Part shown: in pieces, positions 20,685-53,352 of the stretch
Layout of the letters: each line of letters starts with the position of its first letter
How positions within the stretch are numbered: the first letter of the stretch is position 1
Origin: Chrysemys picta bellii
Taxonomy: Eukaryota > Chordata > Testudines > Emydidae
NCBI RefSeq assembly: GCF_011386835.1
Contig: NC_088791.1
Coordinates: 55,695,498 to 55,759,497, forward strand
Direction of reading: 5' to 3'
Length of the DNA: 64,000 nucleotides
The notes under the pieces: model-generated
Databases searched by the model: none
What the model was told of the DNA's origin: nothing
The model's input: the letters and a program-made list of their open reading frames with translations, nothing else
Translations under genes and position numbers: made by a program

Positions 20685-20849
20685 GAGTATGTCTACACTA
20701 CGGGATTAATCCGAATTTATATAATTCGAATTTGGAAAATAGGTTGTATAAAGTCGAAATGTATGCGGCCACACTAAGCACATTAATTCGGCGGTGTGTG
20801 TCCAAGTACCGGGGCTAGCGTCGATTTCTGCAGCGTTGCGCGGTGGGTA

Positions 20850-20880
20850 GCTATCCCATAGCTATCCCATAGTTCCCGCA
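20850..20880. promoter_or_regulatory. Subterminal repeat motif, left end of Harbinger 1
   Basis: Two adjacent copies of agctatcccatag lie about 165 bp from the left end. The inverse form, tgggatagct, occurs at 24873-24882 near the right end, and gcagctatccca lies near the end of the MITE at 60926. Such subterminal repeats are typical binding sites for Harbinger proteins (inference). Confidence 0.5.
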
Positions 20881-21077
20881 GTCTCCCGCGCCCATTGGAA
20901 TTCTGGGTTGAGATCCCAGTGCCTGATGGGACAAAAAACATCGTCGCAGGTGGTTCTGGGTACAGCCTCACCTCCTCCCTCCCTCCCTCCCTGCATGAAA
21001 GCAACGGACGGCAGACAACCATTTCACGCCTTTTTTCCTGGGTGGGTGAACACTGCAGACTCCATACCACAGCAAGC

Positions 21078-22385
21078 ATGGAGCCCGCTCAGCTCAAAAC
21101 AGCAGTCATGAACATTGTAAACACCTTGCGCGTTCTCGTGGAGTTTATGCTGAGCCAGGACCAGAAAAACGAGGCGAGGAGGCAGCAGCAGCGGCAGCTC
21201 AGCGACAAGCATGATGAGGACATGGACATGGACACGGACACGGATACAGAATTATGTGAAACCGCGGGCCCCGGTGCTTTGGAGATCATGTTGTTAATGG
21301 GGCAGGTTCTATCCATGGAACGCCGATTCTGGGCAAGGGAAACAAGCACAGACTGGTGGGACCGCATAGTGTTGCAGGTGTGGGATGATTCCCAGTGGCT
21401 GCGGAACTTTTGCATGCGTAAGGGCACTTTCATGGAACTTTGTGACTTGCTGTCCCCTGCCCTGAAACGCCAGAATACCAAGATGAGAGCAGCCCTCACA
21501 GTTGAGAAGCGCGTGGCGATAGCCCTGTGGAAGCTTGCAACGCCAGACAGCTACCGGTCAGTCGGGAATCAATTTGGAGTGGGCAAATCTACTGTGGGGG
21601 CTGCTGTGATGCAAGTAGCCAAAGCAATCACTCAGGTGCTGCTACGAAAGTTAGTGACTCTGGGAAATGTGCAGGCCATAGTGGATGATTATGCTGCAAT
21701 GGGATTCCCTAACTGTGGTGGGGCGATAGATGGAACCCATATCCCTATCTTGGCACCGGAGCACCAAGCCACCGAGTACATAAACCGCAAGGGGTACTTT
21801 TCAATGGTGCTGCAAGCACTTGTGGATCACAAGGGACGTTTCACCAACATCAACGCGGGCTGGGCGGGAAGGGTTCATGACGCTCGCGTCTTCAGGAACA
21901 CTACTCTGTTTAAAGGGCTGCAGCAAGGGACTTACTTTCCGGACCAGAAAATAACCGTTGGGGATGTTGAAATGCCAATAGTTATTCTTGGGGACCCAGC
22001 CTACCCCTTAATGCCATGGCTCATGAAGCCATACACAGGCAGCCTGGACAGGAGTCAGGAGCTGTTTAACTACAGGCTAAGCAAGTGCAGAATGGTGGTA
22101 GAATGTGCATTTGGCCGTTTAAAAGGTCGCTGGCGTTCATTATTGACTCGCTCTGACCTCAGCCAAAGAAATCTCCCCATTATTATTTCTGCTTGCTGCG
22201 TGCTCCACAATCTCTGTGAAAGTAAGGGGGAGACCTTTATGGCGGGGTGGGAGGCTGAGGCAAATCGCCTGGCTGCTGATTACGCGCAGCCAGACCCCAG
22301 GGCGATTAGAAGAGCACACCAGGAAGCGCTGTGCATCAGAGAAGCTTTGAAAACCAGTTTCATGAGTGGCCAGGCTACAGTGTGA
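21078..22385 (+). CDS. Harbinger DDE transposase (HARBI1-like), intact
   Basis: This nuclease cuts and rejoins the element's ends. From ATG 21078 (MEPAQLKTAV) the protein is 435 residues; an in-frame upstream ATG at 20895 would add 61 residues, but those look like leader. An acidic MDMDTDTDTE tract lies near residue 54. The catalytic residues are visible as D218 in GGAIDGTHIPI, D306 in ILGDPAYPL and E342 in VECAFGRLKGRW, a D-88-D-35-E arrangement expected of DDE_Tnp_4 (spacing counted here as position differences 88 and 36). A helix-turn-helix-like part precedes it (SYRSVGNQFGVGKSTVG). An AATAAA signal follows at 22487-22492. No lesion is seen. In this family the protein needs the partner Myb-like protein for nuclear import and end recognition. 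Confidence 0.95.
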   Translation: MEPAQLKTAVMNIVNTLRVLVEFMLSQDQKNEARRQQQRQLSDKHDEDMDMDTDTDTELCETAGPGALEIMLLMGQVLSMERRFWARETSTDWWDRIVLQVWDDSQWLRNFCMRKGTFMELCDLLSPALKRQNTKMRAALTVEKRVAIALWKLATPDSYRSVGNQFGVGKSTVGAAVMQVAKAITQVLLRKLVTLGNVQAIVDDYAAMGFPNCGGAIDGTHIPILAPEHQATEYINRKGYFSMVLQALVDHKGRFTNINAGWAGRVHDARVFRNTTLFKGLQQGTYFPDQKITVGDVEMPIVILGDPAYPLMPWLMKPYTGSLDRSQELFNYRLSKCRMVVECAFGRLKGRWRSLLTRSDLSQRNLPIIISACCVLHNLCESKGETFMAGWEAEANRLAADYAQPDPRAIRRAHQEALCIREALKTSFMSGQATV

Positions 22386-22687
22386 AATATCTGTTTGTTT
22401 CTCCTTCATGAAAACCCGCCCCCTTTATTGACTCATTTTCTGTAAGGAACCCACCCTCCCCCTTCCCCCAGCTTTCTTTCAAACCAAATAAAGTCACTAT
22501 AATTTAAAAATCATTTATTCTTTATTAATAGATTAGAAAAAGAGGGAGGGAACCCGGGTGGGATTTGGGAGGAGGATCGGTGGGAAGGAAAAGGCCACTA
22601 AAAAAAGGTTAAAAAAATGACAGCCTTTTGCTTGGGCTGTCCACTGGGGTGGAATGGGAAGGTGTACGGAGCCTCCCCCCCGCGTTC

Positions 22688-24752
22688 TTACACGTCTGGG
22701 TGAGGAGGATATGGAACATGGGGAGGGGGGTACATGGGCTGTAGTAGCACTCTGTTTTCCTGCAGCCGTTCCTGAAGCTCCACCAGACGCCGAAGCATGT
22801 CTGTTTGCTCACGCAGCAGCCCCAGCGTTGCATCCTGCCTCCTCTGATCTTCCTGCCGCCACCTCTCATCTCGAGCGTCTCTCCTCTCCTCACGTTGGTC
22901 CCTCCTCTCCTCACGTTGGTCCCTCCTGTCCTCACGTTCACTGGCTTCTTTCCTATACTTTGAAACCATTTCCTTCCACTCATTCAGATGAGCTCTGTCA
23001 CTGCGGCTGGATTCCATAATTTCTGAAAACATCTCGTCTCGCGTCTTCTTTTTACGACGCCTTATCTGTGATAGCCTTCGGGATGGAGGAGGAAGGCTTG
23101 AGGAATTTGCAGCTGCTGTAGGGAGGGGAAAAAAGAGAGAATTGTTTAAAAAGATACATTTTGCAGAACAATGCTTATACTCTTTCACGGTGACCAACAC
23201 TATTCACATTACATAGCACATGTGATTTCTGTGCAAGGTCGCATTTTGCCTCTTAATGCTGAGTGCCTGTGGCTTTGCTGCTAGAGATCACAGGTCCGGG
23301 CAACAGAATTCGGCTTGCATGCGGCCATGGTAAGCCATTGTCTTACAGCTTCTGCGCCCTCCTTTCCCACATACCAAGCATAGCCTGTAGAGTGCTGCGG
23401 TTTTTCTGTTAACATTCAGCAGCAGCAGAAAACAAACTAACCACCCCCCCCCTCCCGCCATGAATTCTCTGGGATGATCGCTGTACCCCTCCCCCCACCG
23501 CGTGGCTGGTATCAGGGAAGATCCCTGCAGGAACCAAACTAACCCCCCCCCCCCCCGCCGCCGCCCCCCTCCCGCCATAAATTCTCTGGGATGATCACGG
23601 TACCCCTCCCCCCACCGCGTGGCTGGTAACAGGGAAGATCCCTGCTAGCCAAACGCGAAAAGCTCAAGGCCAATTTCCCATCTGCGCTTGGCTAACTGCA
23701 GGGAAGGATTTATTTTCCGTCCCAGTAGGAACGGCCACCTCTGTCCCCTTAATTAAGTTCCCGTATTTCAACCAGGTTACCATGAGTGATATCACTCTCC
23801 TGAGGATTACACAACAAGATAAAGAACGGATGTTGCTTGAATGCCAGCAAACACCGGGACCATACGCTGCCAGGCTTTGTCAGGCAATGATACCAGATTA
23901 CTTGCTGCAAGCATGGCGTGGTCAAGTGTCCTACCATGGAGGACGGAATAAGGATGCACTGCCCAGAAACCTTGTGGCAAGGCTTTTGGAGTACCTCCAG
24001 GAGAGCTTCATGGAGATGTCCCTGGAGGATTTCCGCTCCTTCCCCAGACACGTTAACAGACTTTTCCAGTAGCTGAACTGACCGCGAATGCATCCCAAGT
24101 CCTCAGGGCAAAGTAATCATTAAAAACCGTTTGCTTTTAAAACAAGTTTTATATTTTAAAAGGTAAACTCACCTGAGGTCCCTTCCATGGGGTCAGGGTC
24201 TTGGATACTGGCTTGGGAGGGTTGGGAGGGTACTTCAGTCAGGGTGAAAAAAAGATCCTGGCTGTTGGGGAGAACGGAGTGCTGGGTGCTCTCTGCAAGC
24301 TCATCCTCCTCCTCCTCCTCCTCCTCTCCCCCATCGGCAGAATCCTCAGGTGTAGCTGATGAGACTATCCCTGACCCGGAATCCACGATCACAGGTGGGG
24401 TAGTGGTGGCGGCCCCCCCTAGAATTGCATGCAGCTCGGCGTAGAAGCGGCATGTCCGCGGCTCTGACCCAGAGCGACCGTTTGCCTCCTTTGTTTTTTG
24501 ATAGGCTTGTCTGAGCTCCTTGACTTTCACGCGGCACTGATCTGAGTCCCTATTGTGGCCTCTCTCCATCATGCCCTTGGAGATTTTTTCAAAAGTTTTG
24601 GCATTTCGTCTTTTAGAACGAAGTTCTGCAAGCACTGAATCCTCTCCCCATATAGCGATCAGATCCAGTACCTCCCGTACGGTCCATGCTGGTGCTCTTT
24701 TTCGATTATCGGCCTGCATGGTTACCTGTGCTGATGAGCTATCTGTGGTCAC
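22688..24752 (-). CDS. Harbinger Myb/SANT-like DNA-binding protein, two exons, intact
   Basis: Exon 1 is 24752-24173 and ends TCAG|GTGAG. Exon 2 is 23115-22688 after the acceptor CCTACAG. The join (G|CA, Ala) is in frame and gives 1008 nt, 335 residues plus stop. Residues about 18-112 form a trihelix/Myb-like domain (RAPAWTVREVLDLIAIWGED, CRVKVKELRQAYQK, CRFYAELHAILGG). An acidic EEEEEEED run follows. Exon 2 is a long charged coiled coil with REERRDQ-type repeats, encoded by tandem ctcacgttggtccctcctct units, and a proline-rich tail. Two AATAAA signals follow on minus (22526-22521, 22519-22514). In this family the protein binds transposon ends and carries the transposase to the nucleus. Confidence 0.9.
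23437..23651. repeat. Two tandem copies of a ~105-bp C-rich unit in the Myb intron
   Basis: The block ccgccatgaattctctggga...ccaccgcgtggctggta...ggaagatccctgc is repeated once, with the second copy carrying a longer C/CCG tract (23544-23572). It lies between Myb exon 2 and ORF3 of Harbinger 1. Confidence 0.85.
23782..24072 (+). CDS. Harbinger ORF3, 96-residue protein of unknown function
   Basis: A complete ORF lies on plus inside the Myb-gene intron, so antisense to that gene. The start MSDITLLRIT has A at -3. The stop is followed 47 bases later by ATTAAA (24119-24124). The product is small, mostly helical-looking, with GPYAARLCQAMIP in the middle, a basic RGQVSYHGGRNKD segment and an amphipathic LVARLLEYLQESFMEMSLED near the end. 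No known domain was recognised. The same protein, in the same place and orientation, is found decayed in Harbinger element 2 (51033-50766, minus). That conservation between diverged elements argues that it was under selection as protein. I cannot assign a function. Confidence 0.65.
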   Translation: MSDITLLRITQQDKERMLLECQQTPGPYAARLCQAMIPDYLLQAWRGQVSYHGGRNKDALPRNLVARLLEYLQESFMEMSLEDFRSFPRHVNRLFQ

Positions 24753-25370
24753 CTGTGCTCTCCACGCTGGGCAAACAGGAAATGAAATTCAAATGTTCGC
24801 GGGGCTTTTCCTGTCTACCTGGCCAGTGCATCCGAGTTTAGATTGCTGTCCAGAGCGGTCACAATGATGCACTGTGGGATAGCTCCCGGAGGCCAATACC
24901 ATCGAATTGCGGCCACACTATCCCTAATTCGAAATGTTAAAATCGATTTTGGCGCTACTCCGCTCGTCGGAGTGGAGTACAGAAATCGATTTAAAGGGCC
25001 CTTTATATCGAAATAAATAGCGTCGTTGTGTGGACGGTTGCAGGGTAAATTCGAATTAAAGCTGATAAATCCGAATTAAAGTCGTAGTGTAGACCAGGCC
25101 TAAGTTAACAGAGACTTTCCCAGCGCCCAGTGTTCAGCCTTTCTGGGCAATTTGCAACCTGTGTAGTTCTAGCTTCTTCTGATCTTTACTCTTACTTATT
25201 TTGCTTACTTTTCTGTCCCTACTTCCCTTACCTGAAATAAGCAAACAGAAAATAACAAACCAGTAACCACTTTGTCTGTTCTCCAGCCACCACACCCAAA
25301 ACTCACTTAAAATCACTACCAGTATCTCAAAGCAATCAGCTGTGCACAGATCCTGCTCAACTACACCACT

Positions 25371-27479: not shown

Positions 27480-27868
27480 TGTGTTGAGTCTTCCTGCCTC
27501 CACCAGTCTTGTGAAAAGAAGTCTGCATTTTTATAATCCATGCCAGCTTGATGTAGCACTGTGAATTGGTATGGTTGCAGAGACAAATACCACCACATCA
27601 CTCTGGAGTTATGGTCCTTCAGGAACTGTAGCCATCACAGGGGACAGTCACCAGATGGAATGGGTGGCCCCATAGGTAATAGCATAGGGCATCTACAGAC
27701 CATTTTACTGTTAGGGCCTCCTTCTCAATCTCTGAAGAGGCAACTTCCTGGGGGAACAAGTTCCTGCTGATGTTGAAGACAAGAGGTTCCCCTCCCACCA
27801 CTTCTTGTGACAGTACAGCTCCAAGGCTGACATCAGATGCATCCATTAAGTGTGGTATGTAATAATAG
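27480..27868 (-). pseudogene. Gypsy B RNase H
   Basis: The minus frame shows MDASDVSLGAVLSQEV, then SEIEKEALTVKWSVDALCYY and HPFHLVT. These are the D, E and downstream motifs of retroelement RNase H. A stop follows in what would be the connection region. CR1 separates it from the reverse transcriptase. Confidence 0.85.
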
Positions 27869-30033
27869 TTTAAATCAGCTTCTGTACCAGATGACTGGAG
27901 GATAGCTAACGTGACACCATTTTTTTCAAAAGGCTCCAGAGGCAAACCTGGCAAGTACAGGCCAATAAACCTTTCTTTAGTACCAGACAAATTGGTTGAA
28001 ACTATACTAAAGAACTGAATTATCAGACTATAGTGGGGCAGCTGCCCCATTCCCACAGAACGGGGGTTGAAAGCAGCCCTAGAGAGAGCTGTGGCTGGGG
28101 AAAAGAGTGAAAGCAGCTGAGGGAGTAACTGACCACAGGTGTGGCCAGCCCAATCAGGCCACAGCTGGTCGTATAAAGGGGCTGCGAGCCAGGCACTGAG
28201 GAGTCTAACTCTAGCCCTGGAGTGAGAAGGGCTAGTTGTCTAGGAGCAAGGTACCTGAGGTGGGGCAGTGGTGGAAAAGGGTAAAGGGAGCTGGGGAGCT
28301 CCAGCCTGGTAAACCCCCAGGCTGCAGACCTTGATGAAGGCCTATGAAGAGGTACTGGGGCTGTAGAGATACAGCCTGGGAATAGGCAGAGGTAGCTGGT
28401 CCTAACCCCTTGCCAATGATGAGTGGCCTTTACAGACTGCAGTTTGCCCCAGAGAGCGGGGGCTAGATGATGACCCTCAGTAGCCACTGATGCAAGGTGG
28501 GTTTAGAGGTTTGGGGGTTCCCCTGGGAGGGGAAACCCAAAGTAAGGGGGTACTGCTGGGGGCAGAACCCCAAGGTAAAGGGGCACTGGGGTCTGGGAGG
28601 GATATTGGGGCCCTAAGGTGGGTGAGCCACTGGCCAGCAGAGGGTGCTCTGGACCTGAAAAGAGCTAATTCCCTTATGAACAGCAGGAGGTGCCGTGCTG
28701 GTCAGTCTTCACTTTGCTACACAGACCCATAGATTAAAACAATTTGTTGGGGGAAGAGTCAGCATGGCTTTTGTAAAGGGAAATCTTGCCTCACCAATCT
28801 ATTAGAATTCTTTGTGGGGGTCAACAAACACGTGGACAAGAGTAATCCAGAGGATATAGTGTAATTAGACTTTCAGAAAGCCTTTGACAAGTAAGCAGTC
28901 ATGGGATAAGAGGGAAGGTTCTCTCATGGATCAAAGACCGAAAACAATGGGTAGGAATAAAGGGTCAGTTTTTGCAATGGAAAGAGGTAAATAGTGGTGT
29001 CCCCCAGAGTTCTGTACTGGGACCAGTGCTGTTCAACATATTCATAAATTATCTGGAAAAAGGGATTAACTGGTAGCAAAATTTGCAGATGATACAAAAT
29101 TATTTGAGATAGTTAAGTACAAAGCAGACTGCAAAGAGTTACAAAGGGATCTCGCAAAACTGGGTGACTGGGCCATAAAATGACAGATGAAATTCAATGT
29201 TGGTAAATGCAAAGTTATGCACATTGGAAAACATAATCCGAACTATACTTACAAAATGATGGGGTGTAAATTAACTGCTACCACTCAAGCAAGAGATCTT
29301 GGCATCATCGTGGATAGTTCTCTGAAAACATCTGCTCAGAGTGCAGCCAAAAAAACCCCAAAGAATGTTAGGAACCATTAGGATAGGAATAGATAATAAG
29401 ACAGAAAATATCATAATGCCTCTATATAAATCCATGGAATACTGTGTGCAATTCTGTTCACCAATCTCAGAAAAGATATATTAGACTTTGAAAAGGTACA
29501 GAGAAGGGCAACAAAAGGGTTTGGGACAGCTTCCATATGAGGAGAGATTAAAAAGACTGGGACTTTTCATCTCAGAAAAGAGATGACTTTGTTGTGGAGA
29601 AAGTGAATAAGGAAGTGTTATTTACTCTTTCACATAACACAAAAACCAAGGGTCATCCTATGAAATTAATAGGCAGCAGGTTTAAAACAAACAAAAGAAA
29701 GTCTTCACACAGCACACACTAAACCTGTGGAACTTGTTGCCAGGGGATGTTATGAAGACTAAAACTATAACAGGGCTCAAAGAAGAACTAGATAAGTTCA
29801 TGGAGGATAGGTCCATCAATGCCTATTAGCCAAGATGGTCAGGGATGCAACCCCATGCTGAGTGTCCCTAGCATCTGTTTGCCAGAAGCTGGGAGTGGAT
29901 GATAGGGGATTGATCACTCGATGACTGCCTGTTCTGTTCATTCTCTCAGAAGCATCTGGCATTGGCCACTGTCAGAAGACAGGATACTGGGCTAGATGGA
30001 CCACTGGTCTGACCCAATATGGCTGTTATGTTC
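27869..30033 (+). mobile_element. CR1 LINE in Gypsy B, itself split by a solo LTR
   Basis: Part 1 (27869-28028) encodes FKSASVPDDWRIANVTP. Part 2 (28722-30033) continues with QHGFCKGKSCLTNLLEFF wording and FADD-like sequence, MKFNVGKCKVMHIGKHNPNY, and a CR1 3' end near ggctgttatgttca. The interruption is a 693-bp LTR. Many stops and deletions occur. Confidence 0.9.
28029..28721 (+). repeat. Solo LTR in CR1, 5-bp duplication cagac
   Basis: The insert is flanked by perfect cagac repeats (28024-28028 and 28722-28726), and CR1 sequence resumes in register on the other side. It starts tatagtggggcagctg (TG changed to TA) and ends gctaca. A TATA box (gtataaaggg) lies near 28169. No internal retroviral genes remain. 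Length and 5-bp duplication fit an endogenous retrovirus or LTR retrotransposon. Confidence 0.85.
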
Positions 30034-50101: not shown

Positions 50102-51883
50102 ATGCCTGCTCCACGCAGCAGGCAATCCCCTGCTTGGAGCAATGCCGAGTTGCTGGACCTCATCAGCATTTGGGGAGAGGAGACTGTGCAATCCCAGCTG
50201 CACTCCAGCCATAGGAATCATGATACCTACAGATGGATTTCACAATGCATGATAGAAAGGGGCCATGACCAGGACACATTGCAGTGTAAGGTAAAAGTGA
50301 AGGAGCTGTGGAACGCCTACCACAAGGCGCAGCAGGCAAACCGCCACTCCGGTGCTGCATCCACAAGCTGCCGGTTCTACAAAGAGCTGGACACAATAGT
50401 CGGTGGCAACCCCCCCTCCACTGCGAAGGCCCCTGTGGATACATTGTTGGCTTGCATGCCAGTCGAGAGTGGACCGAGCCAGGAGGAGGAAATCTTGGAG
50501 GAAGAGGGGGAGAGGGACCCAGAGGCAGAGGATGATTGAGAGGCCAGAGATGCATGCAGTCAGGAACTCTGGAGGAGCCTAGCCAGTCACAGCAGTCAGA
50601 TCTTGGCGAAGCGCAAACAGGGAGAGGAGGCCCCTGGTAAGTGGCTCTGATTTTGGGAATTGCTGAAGCGAGTTGTTAGGGGCAGGAGGGTTGCAGAAAG
50701 CAGGCTTGTCTCCCACTGCATGCCTAGTCTGAGCGGCGGCACAGGCTGTTGAGAGACTCCCTCACTTAACGGGAATCTCCCTCAGAGATCTCCAGGAAAC
50801 TCTCACGGAGATACTTGGCAATCCACTGCCACAGGTTACTTGGCAGAGCTGCTTTGTTTCTTGCCCCATTAATAGTAACTTTCCCACGCCACTTTGCCAT
50901 CACGGTGGTGGAGGAACGGGGGGACCATTGCTGCACACAGGTGAGCTGCATAGGGGCCAGGGCAGAAGACGCAGTCTTGGAGAAGACCCTCCCTTGATTC
51001 ACTGCTCACCCTCAGCAGCGAGATATCTTCCATAATGATCACCTCCTATGGAAAGTGTGGAGGCAAGAATGATTATCAGGCCCCCCCTACAGTGCTGGGA
51101 CTCCCCAAGAGCCACGTGCCCACTGTACAGCAGGGTCCGGGAAGAGTGATTTACCCCGCCCCTGCAGCTACTCACCATTTTGGGGGTCTTGTGGCTCGTG
51201 TGCTTGCCTGGGGTCAGCTAGTTAGTGACAGTTGTGGGAGTACTGGCTGTGTTTTAAAGCACTGAATCAGTGTTGTCTGTGTTGCAAACAATACTGCTTC
51301 TGTAAAATGTTGCATTTAAACTTCACAGAGATGACCTTGGGAGCCCAGCCTCCCTCTTTGTTATCGGCGGTAGAACAACTGCGCAGAATTAGAAAGCAGC
51401 CAAGAAGAACTAAGGAGAACTTTCTCTGTAAGGTTATGATGCACTCTGCCGCCGAGAAACAGGAATTGAAGGAGTGGCGGGACAGTGAGAAGAGGGACCA
51501 AAAGGAGAATGTGGCACACCAGAAAGAAGCCATGGAGTGGCTCTTAAACGTTATGGAGCGCCAAGTGGACATGCTCCAAGCAATACTAGCTCTTCAAACT
51601 GAGCAGCTTTGCACCCGCCCTCCCCTGCAGCCGCCGTCGCAAAACTTTTTCCCATGCTCCCCCGCAGACACCACCAACACATTCTCATCAACCTCTAGGC
51701 TGCAGTCTATACCCACAGCATTCCACTCCTCCCTCCTCACAGTCTAGCACTGTGGACTCCCACTACTCACGGCACTCAACACCCATCCCTTTGCAGTGTG
51801 GCCCTGCTGAAGTACAGCACCTGCTGCATTGTGCTCCAAAGGAGAAGGTTGGGTATGATCCCTGGACATACACAAATCTGTAG
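50102..51883 (+). pseudogene. Harbinger 2 Myb/SANT-like gene, two exons
   Basis: Exon 1 is 50102-50636 (MPAPRSRQSPAWSNAELLDL, IWGEETVQSQLH, CKVKVKELWNAYHKAQQ, CRFYKELDTIVGG), ending CCTG|GTAAGT. Exon 2 starts at 51329 after CTTCACAG (MTLGAQPPSLL, RRIRKQPRRTKENFL, a charged coiled coil). The join is in frame. One TGA at 50537-50539 (codon 146, likely a CGA to TGA change) and one frameshift near 51660 break it. The last residues, reached in the shifted frame, are DPWTYTNL with stop at 51883. AATAAA follows near 51958. Confidence 0.85.
50766..51033 (-). pseudogene. Harbinger 2 ORF3, one frameshift
   Basis: On minus from ATG 51033 the sequence reads MEDISLLRVS, then CPGPYAAHLCAAMVP. After a frameshift near 50900 it reads KWRGKVTINGARNKAALPSN and AKYLRESFLEIS, ending in TAA. 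It aligns from first to last residue with the intact ORF3 of Harbinger 1. It lies inside the Myb intron (50637-51328), antisense, exactly as in Harbinger 1. Confidence 0.75.
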
Positions 51884-52099: not shown

Positions 52100-53352
52100 C
52101 AAGCACTGCAATCCCGAGCATAGCCACAAATATTTGTGGCTTTCAGCTTCAAATTGCTGCCTCAAAGCATCCCTGATCCTTATGGCCCCACACTGTGCCC
52201 CTCTAATAGCTCTAGTCTCTGGCTGTTCAAACTCAGCCTCCAGGTGCTGTGCCTCTGCGGTTCAACCCTGGGTGATGCTTTCATCCTTCCCTTCACAAAT
52301 ATTATGGAGCGTACAGCACACGGCTATAAGCATAGGAATATTGTCATCAGCCATGTCCAGCTTCCCATACAGGCATTGCCAGCGAGCTTTTAAACAGCCA
52401 AATGCACACTCAACAGTCATTCAGCACCTGCTCAGCCTGTTGTTGAACCACTCCTTGCTCCTGTCAAGTTGCCCTGTGTATGGCTTCATAAGCCACGGAA
52501 TTAAGGGGTAGGCAGGGTCTCCCAGGATCACAATGGGCATTTCGACTTCCCCTACGGTGATCTTCTGGTCCAGGAAGAAAGTCCCTGCTTGCAGCTTCTT
52601 GAACAGGCCAGTGTTCAGTCCTTTCCGGACCAGCCTGCATTAATGTCTGTGAAACGCCCACAGTGATCCACAAGTGCCTGGAGAACCATTGAGAAATACC
52701 CCCTGCGATTAATGTACTCTGTGGCTAGATGGTCTGGTGCCAAAATTGGAATGTGTGTGCCATCTATCACCCCTCCATAATTAGGGAAGCCCATTTTTGC
52801 AAAGCCATCCACAATGTCATGCAGGTTGCCCAGAATCACAGTCTTTTGGAGCAGGATTAATGGCCCTGCACACTTCCATCAACACGACTCTAACTGTCTA
52901 CTTTCCCACTCCAAACTGGTTAATGACCGATCGGTAGCAGTCTGGAGTAGCCAGCTTCCACAGTGCAATCACCACACACTTCTCCAGCGACCGGACAGCT
53001 TTCATTGTTGTGTCCTTGCACCACAGGGCTGGGGCGAGCTCATCACACACTCCCATGAATGTGGCTTTCCTCATGCGAAAATTCTGCAGCCACTGCTTGT
53101 GATCCCAGACATGCATGACGATGTGATCCCACCACTCAGTGCTTGTTTCCCGAGCCCAAAAGTGGCATTCCACTGTGGTCAGCACCTCCATGTATGCCAC
53201 AAGCAATCTTGTGTCACAGCTACTATGCGTGGTGAGATCAACGTCACACTCCTCTTGACTTTGTAATTTAAGGAATAACTCCACTGCCACTCGTGATGTA
53301 TTGGTCAGAGTGAGCAGCGTACTGGTCAGCAGTTCGGGATCCATTCCTGCAG
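52100..53352 (-). pseudogene. Harbinger 2 DDE transposase
   Basis: From MDPELLTSTLLTLTN (near 53342) the N-terminal half is open to FGVGK at 52898, then a stop and frameshifts follow. GVIDGTHIPILAPDHLATEY (about 52780) holds the first catalytic Asp. VILGDPAYPLIPWLMKPYTG (about 52530) holds the second, and MTVECAFGCLKARW (about 52420) the Glu, each in different frames. The catalytic residues are kept, but the frame is lost at several places. Confidence 0.85.

Follow-up and report, generated by a model that had tools for sequence, protein, structure and literature searches.

Organization of a turtle Harbinger element

The DNA analysed here, referred to as the window, covers 64,000 nucleotides (nt) of Chrysemys picta bellii contig NC_088791.1 (positions 55,695,498 to 55,759,497, numbered below from the first letter) and contains two Harbinger elements. 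Element 1, representing family A, extends from 20691 to 25094 based on its terminal inverted repeats (TIRs) and copy alignment. It encodes a DDE transposase of 435 amino acids on the forward strand (21078 to 22385; PF13359, E 2.1e-36) and a Myb/SANT gene on the reverse strand (22688 to 24719). The latter consists of exon 1 (24719 to 24173; PF13837, E 1.5e-20), a presumed intron with canonical donor and acceptor sites (24172 to 23116) and exon 2, which runs from 23115 down to about 22688. The TIRs are 30 nt long (20691 to 20720 and 25065 to 25094) and 83% complementary. The exact ends of the element are approximate, and the apparent ends are flanked by TTA (left) and TAA (right), compared with the expected 3-bp TWA target-site duplication. 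End-to-end alignment to element 1 was found for 16 of the 20 genome copies fetched, the other four being partial. With its DDE_Tnp_4-type transposase, Myb/SANT accessory gene and TIRs, element 1 shows the traits of PIF/Harbinger transposons. Antisense within the Myb intron, between Myb exons 1 and 2, lies an open reading frame of 96 codons, from now on referred to as ORF3 (23782 to 24072, forward strand), with an ATTAAA polyadenylation-type signal downstream (24119 to 24124). The frame is located exactly where a first-pass annotation of the window had placed it, together with an ATTAAA signal, when it proposed a third conserved component of these elements.

Element 2, representing family B, has the layout of element 1 in reverse. 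Its ORF3 (50766 to 51178, reverse strand) comprises an ATG (51178 to 51176), a putative intron of 130 nt (51175 to 51046) and an exon 2 starting at 51045, which is broken by a frameshift; the region homologous to the ORF3 of element 1 (51033 to 50766) matches it in two frames with 51% and 38% identity (tblastn E 5e-12 and 4e-11). A transposase remnant is found on the same strand (52151 to 53344; tblastn E 3e-103, 45% identity), and the Myb gene on the opposite one (50102 to 51747), with exon 1 starting at 50102 (tblastn E 3e-34) and a probable exon 2 within the open reading frame 51307 to 51747, which was assigned by position and by eye and is presumably joined to exon 1 by splicing. The frameshifted homologue in the same intron and orientation had already been noted; the arrangement of ATG, intron and exon shared by the two elements is an addition to that description.

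ORF3 is conserved at the protein level

Over the 82 codons that can be compared between the two window copies of ORF3, 30, 23 and 52 differences are located at first, second and third codon positions, respectively (105 in total; hypergeometric P 3.2e-6 for the third-position excess). The excess of synonymous changes between families that the first-pass annotation had proposed to look for is thus found (pS 0.78 versus pN 0.33), while the relation is reversed, with pS below pN, in both shifted frames and in the single antisense phase that was tested. A second comparison, between the ORF3 of element 1 and a copy from a further family, family C (L046), gave 44, 38 and 67 differences over 95 codons (149 in total; P 9.4e-6). 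Protein searches identified 26 different ORF3 relatives, some of them partial, and all 18 that carry a species name are from turtles, specifically Chelonia, Malaclemys, Chrysemys, Caretta, Lepidochelys, Gopherus and Pangshura. It should be noted that these searches depend on shared 5-residue words and on predicted proteins, and that the genome searched was that of one turtle, Chrysemys.

In this genome, ORF3 of element 1 yielded 14,487 candidates, and the frame is stop-free in 147 of the best 150, which were scored. All 20 matches that were fetched lie within this Harbinger element. Family C, the second family in the genome search (best 150 of 12,775 candidates scored), shares 42-46% identity with the window ORF3. 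A Myb match is located downstream on the opposite strand in all 12 family C loci examined, partly overlapping ORF3 in one of them (L047), and transposase sequence is found upstream on the ORF3 strand in 10 of the 12. L047 is shortened: its transposase, ORF3 and Myb sequences are spaced much more tightly than those of the other loci, which points to internal deletions that spared ORF3.

As choosing copies by ORF3 similarity biases ORF3 divergence, a set of 20 elements was also selected via a Myb exon search (best 150 of 19,813 candidates scored; ranks 2-20 and one element near the bottom). ORF3 is present in 19 of these, 11 of which have the exon intact, and the ATTAAA signal is kept in all 19 aligned copies. 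The frame is therefore open in far more than the single copy that would have spoken against the original proposal, and its association with Myb holds in this set as well as in family C. Substitutions in the Myb-selected copies number 17, 21 and 13 by codon position, indicating that single ORF3 copies decay without visible selection; the third-position excess between families would then have to originate from active lineages. Three further copies (L022, L027 and L028) form a sub-family that shares about 90% identity with element 1 and is near-identical to it in ORF3. The sub-family consensuses differ at 3 of 288 ORF3 sites versus 66 of 1287 transposase sites, a contrast not used as evidence because the copies were picked by ORF3 similarity.

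Recent copies also resemble each other in part of the adjoining intron (1.5% versus 0.9% in ORF3), as would be expected if the open frame were incidental and the DNA were maintained for a regulatory or splicing function within the Myb intron. This explanation is extremely improbable, however, given that substitutions between families follow the ORF3 frame and not the others tested, and that the frame encodes a compact, confidently predicted fold.

ORF3 is most likely a two-exon gene

The first-pass annotation assumed that translation starts at the ATG of the open frame itself, at 23782. This codon is probably not the start. It reads AGG in 5 of the 19 Myb-selected copies, and 22 of the 150 best ORF3 matches start only at residue 2. 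A different start codon is proposed at 23327 to 23329, where an ATG forms the last codon of exon 1 and lies directly on a splice donor (ATG|GTAAGC). Four of the five AGG copies keep this site. Its GT is found in all 21 aligned rows, and the ATG|GT site in 17 of the 19 Myb-selected copies. A putative phase 0 intron of 446 nt (23330 to 23775), delimited by donor and acceptor, would lead to coding exon 2 (VTMSDITLL...LFQ, stop; 23776 to 24072), and joining the two exons in phase yields a product of 99 amino acids beginning MVTMSDITLL. In each window element, a single ATGGTRAG occurs on the ORF3 strand and represents this start codon on a donor, in phase with ORF3, compared with a background of 5 occurrences in the 128,000 nt of both window strands. 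The site of element 2 (CAAAATG|GTGAGT) is located 130 nt ahead of the ORF3 acceptor, and the Chelonia gene model P0017 is joined at a point that, judged by eye, matches the element 2 junction.

The same arrangement is found in family C. The first in-frame ATG of the family C consensus exon is codon 39, none being located at its head, and an in-frame stop is located just 5' of the acceptor (CCCCACATTTTCCACAG|GAGTTC); an AATAAA follows the stop codon. Nine loci have a start codon supplied by a strong donor 114-131 nt upstream (ATG|GTRAGT), which gives a joined product of 101 amino acids, like the Chelonia protein P0020. Predicted ORF3 products across the three families thus have about 99-101 residues. 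ATG|GTRAG is retained in 11 of 12 family C loci, the remaining one (L043) lacking it over the stretch scanned; further exceptions are L051, where the sixth base is changed, and L054, where the acceptor pattern was not found. As the words flanking the start ATG are common to families B and C, the independent comparison is that of family A with B and C. Four family C loci (L050, L051, L052 and L054) also carry an acceptor-like motif, CCCACAG|GAG or TCCACAG|GAG, about 144 nt 5' of the coding exon and only 13 nt ahead of the ATG|GT donor, as if a micro-exon of 13 nt held the start.

Based on the AGG copies, the matches starting at residue 2, the lack of a head ATG in family C and the shared ATG|GT layout, the ATG at 23782 appears dispensable and 23327 is most likely the start; in all three families, ORF3 is most likely a two-exon gene. 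On sequence grounds, a third conserved gene is the best-supported reading of ORF3, because the protein is conserved across families with a third-position excess and because the three families share one layout in the same place and on the same strand. The earlier proposal of a third component is supported on these points, its probable splicing and the predicted fold described below having gone unnoticed at the time.

The ORF3 product is predicted to adopt a BEN fold

The predicted structure of an ORF3 relative (P0005) is compact and confidently predicted, and shows the five-helix BEN fold. BEN domains of BEND3 (BEN4, 7W27 and 7V9I; BEN3, 7V9H) match it over 87-90 residues with 17-24% identity and a colinear profile match. 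Profile comparison with hhalign gave a probability of 28.8 for BEND3 and of 7.2 for other BEN domains, with none of 200 shuffles scoring as well in either case. None of 14 ORF3 members matches PF10523 at E values up to 10, and Pfam searches with the window ORF3 and the 14 members revealed no BEN or other shared family. PDB sequence searches returned no BEN chain (A3, no match; A4, five weak unrelated matches), and Foldseek, when given only the low-confidence model of the window protein, showed no BEN protein among the 50 of 68 matches listed. AcrIIA7, the sole PDB sequence match of the window protein (E 0.97), was not taken as its identity. Due to the lack of a PF10523 match, and because LIN-14 is likewise diverged, the ORF3 product is referred to as a BEN-fold protein and not as a member of the Pfam BEN family. 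LIN-14, whose BEN fold was found via structure and not sequence (PMC10080584), is described as having a minimally similar motif logo; mutation confirmed its BEN identity, and its DNA binding is experimentally established, whereas that of ORF3 is a prediction.

BEN domains bind DNA sequence-specifically and BEN proteins are mostly chromatin-related, as described in PMC11472053. Solved complexes of BEN domains with DNA show helix 5 reading the major groove, and helix 2 together with the helix 3-helix 4 loop holding the backbone (PMC11472053). All three features are present in the predicted ORF3 fold. The chain ends within helix 5, and the structure alignment reaches position 316 of BANP (base-reading Arg316, helix 5) only at the last model residue. 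Like the BEND3 domains, ORF3 has five helices; unlike them, it is too diverged for PF10523, stands alone, has a helix 5 that stops where the chain stops and is borne by a transposon.

Transposons capture exons, and the host genome itself encodes BEN proteins (14 PF10523 matches, 12 of them over the cut-off). For the BEN comparison, 12 of the 14 matches were used, leaving out L040 and L042 and including L041 even though it is below the Pfam cut-off. A host BEN exon captured once and carried along in the Myb intron as a passenger is nevertheless a very improbable origin of the pattern observed, as a third-position excess over such deep divergence and a layout common to three families require selection on the product.

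Gene models fuse the ORF3 exon to other exons

Several annotated gene models, P0004 (Malaclemys) and P0012, P0021 and P0025 (Chelonia), begin with transposase N-termini that run into ORF3. These junctions, and those of P0018 and P0003 described below, were judged by eye, with the N-terminus of P0021 also identified by tblastn; P0012 and P0025 include just the initial portion of ORF3. In P0018, a DDE-containing piece is joined to ORF3 via another acceptor. In the window, an in-frame donor inside the transposase gene (CAG|GTGTGG; 21377 to 21378, forward strand) would join 23776 in phase 0, resulting in a transposase-ORF3 fusion of 198 amino acids. P0004 also has exactly 198 amino acids and apparently the same junction, and the GT of the donor is retained in all 20 aligned rows. 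ORF3 could accordingly belong mainly to the transposase gene, as an alternative last exon whose use skips the catalytic domain and gives rise to a truncated transposase-BEN fusion acting as a self-made repressor. The P element offers a precedent in its 66 kDa repressor, a truncated transposase generated by alternative RNA processing, via intron retention and with a THAP domain (PMC7776569); the turtle fusions, if real, would use an alternative last exon instead. However, this evidence consists of annotation models, and a strong acceptor may be linked by gene finders to whichever upstream exon is in frame. A fusion has no need of an ATG|GT start exon, yet three families share one. Five family C transposase N-termini contained two phase 0 G|GT sites, one in L060 and the other, in a shifted frame, in L055, and no position is shared. 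Because of the start exon in families A, B and C and the missing common donor in family C, the fusion is regarded as rather unlikely to be the main form of the gene.

One further model, P0003 (Chrysemys RAB3C isoform X3, contig C6), splices a RAB3C exon to the ORF3 exon of a related Harbinger element and may represent a gene trap.

Possible function of ORF3

Two open reading frames are described for most candidate autonomous PIF/Harbinger elements of the PHIS superfamily (PMC4482050), and neither a third gene nor a BEN protein is described for Harbinger elements in the literature titles and abstract openings surveyed. The turtle elements resemble known PIF/Harbinger elements in their DDE transposase (PF13359), Myb/SANT protein (PF13837) and short TIRs, and differ from them by a third, antisense, probably spliced BEN-fold gene in the Myb intron. 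We consider it reasonably probable that ORF3 is a genuine third gene with its own start on a donor, one intron and a solitary BEN-fold product that most likely acts as a DNA-binding regulator. The gene would comprise the start codon at 23327, the intron, the coding exon (23776 to 24072) and the polyadenylation-type signal after it, all antisense within the Myb intron, a position that could couple ORF3 expression to that of Myb. The protein would then bind DNA of the element or of host chromatin through helix 5, and binding may tune transcription or transposition. This would agree with the accessory or regulatory role suggested in the first-pass annotation. Drosophila insv, a BEN-only repressor, illustrates how such a protein could act; insv and LIN-14 share the BEN fold with ORF3, their genes being host genes.

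The ORF3 product could alternatively be a structural part of the transposition complex, binding the ends of the element jointly with the Myb protein and helping the transposase to pair or cut them. The sequence-specific DNA binding of BEN domains (PMC11472053) and the retention of the gene across diverged, numerous families would fit such a role. Moreover, a BEN-like domain in Tn3 TnpA (DBD1) is described as reading the inverted repeat (PMC9579193), a transposon-encoded BEN-like fold that is, however, part of a bacterial transposase and not a separate gene, and whose likeness to ORF3 is one of description only. Mobilisation in this superfamily is reported to require two element proteins (PMC2836001) and most families are described with two open reading frames (PMC4482050); a structural role is regarded as unlikely.

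Returning to ORF3 as a regulatory third gene, a broader version of this reading is put forward tentatively, as a possibility we doubt more than we favour. A resident BEN-only protein, binding chromatin or DNA, would act alone via its own start exon. Its acceptor would also join it to the transposase N-terminus, yielding a built-in repressor, as well as to exons of host genes, RAB3C being an example, and very many copies would spread a ready-made BEN exon through turtle genomes. If ORF3 is indeed a third gene, it would alter, in at least one vertebrate group, the set of components ascribed to a well known superfamily of eukaryotic transposons. The BEN fold would gain a mobile carrier and host genes a route to acquire BEN exons, and self-regulation or chromatin targeting of a cut-and-paste element, as an extra layer of control or targeting, would become testable.

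Other features of the window

Within Myb exon 2 of element 1, the list of open reading frames shows short tandem repeats composed of RRDQREE units (22854 to 22960). Outside the elements, an open reading frame on the reverse strand (27619 to 28050) resembles, by eye and from its motif, the RNase H part of a retroelement polyprotein.
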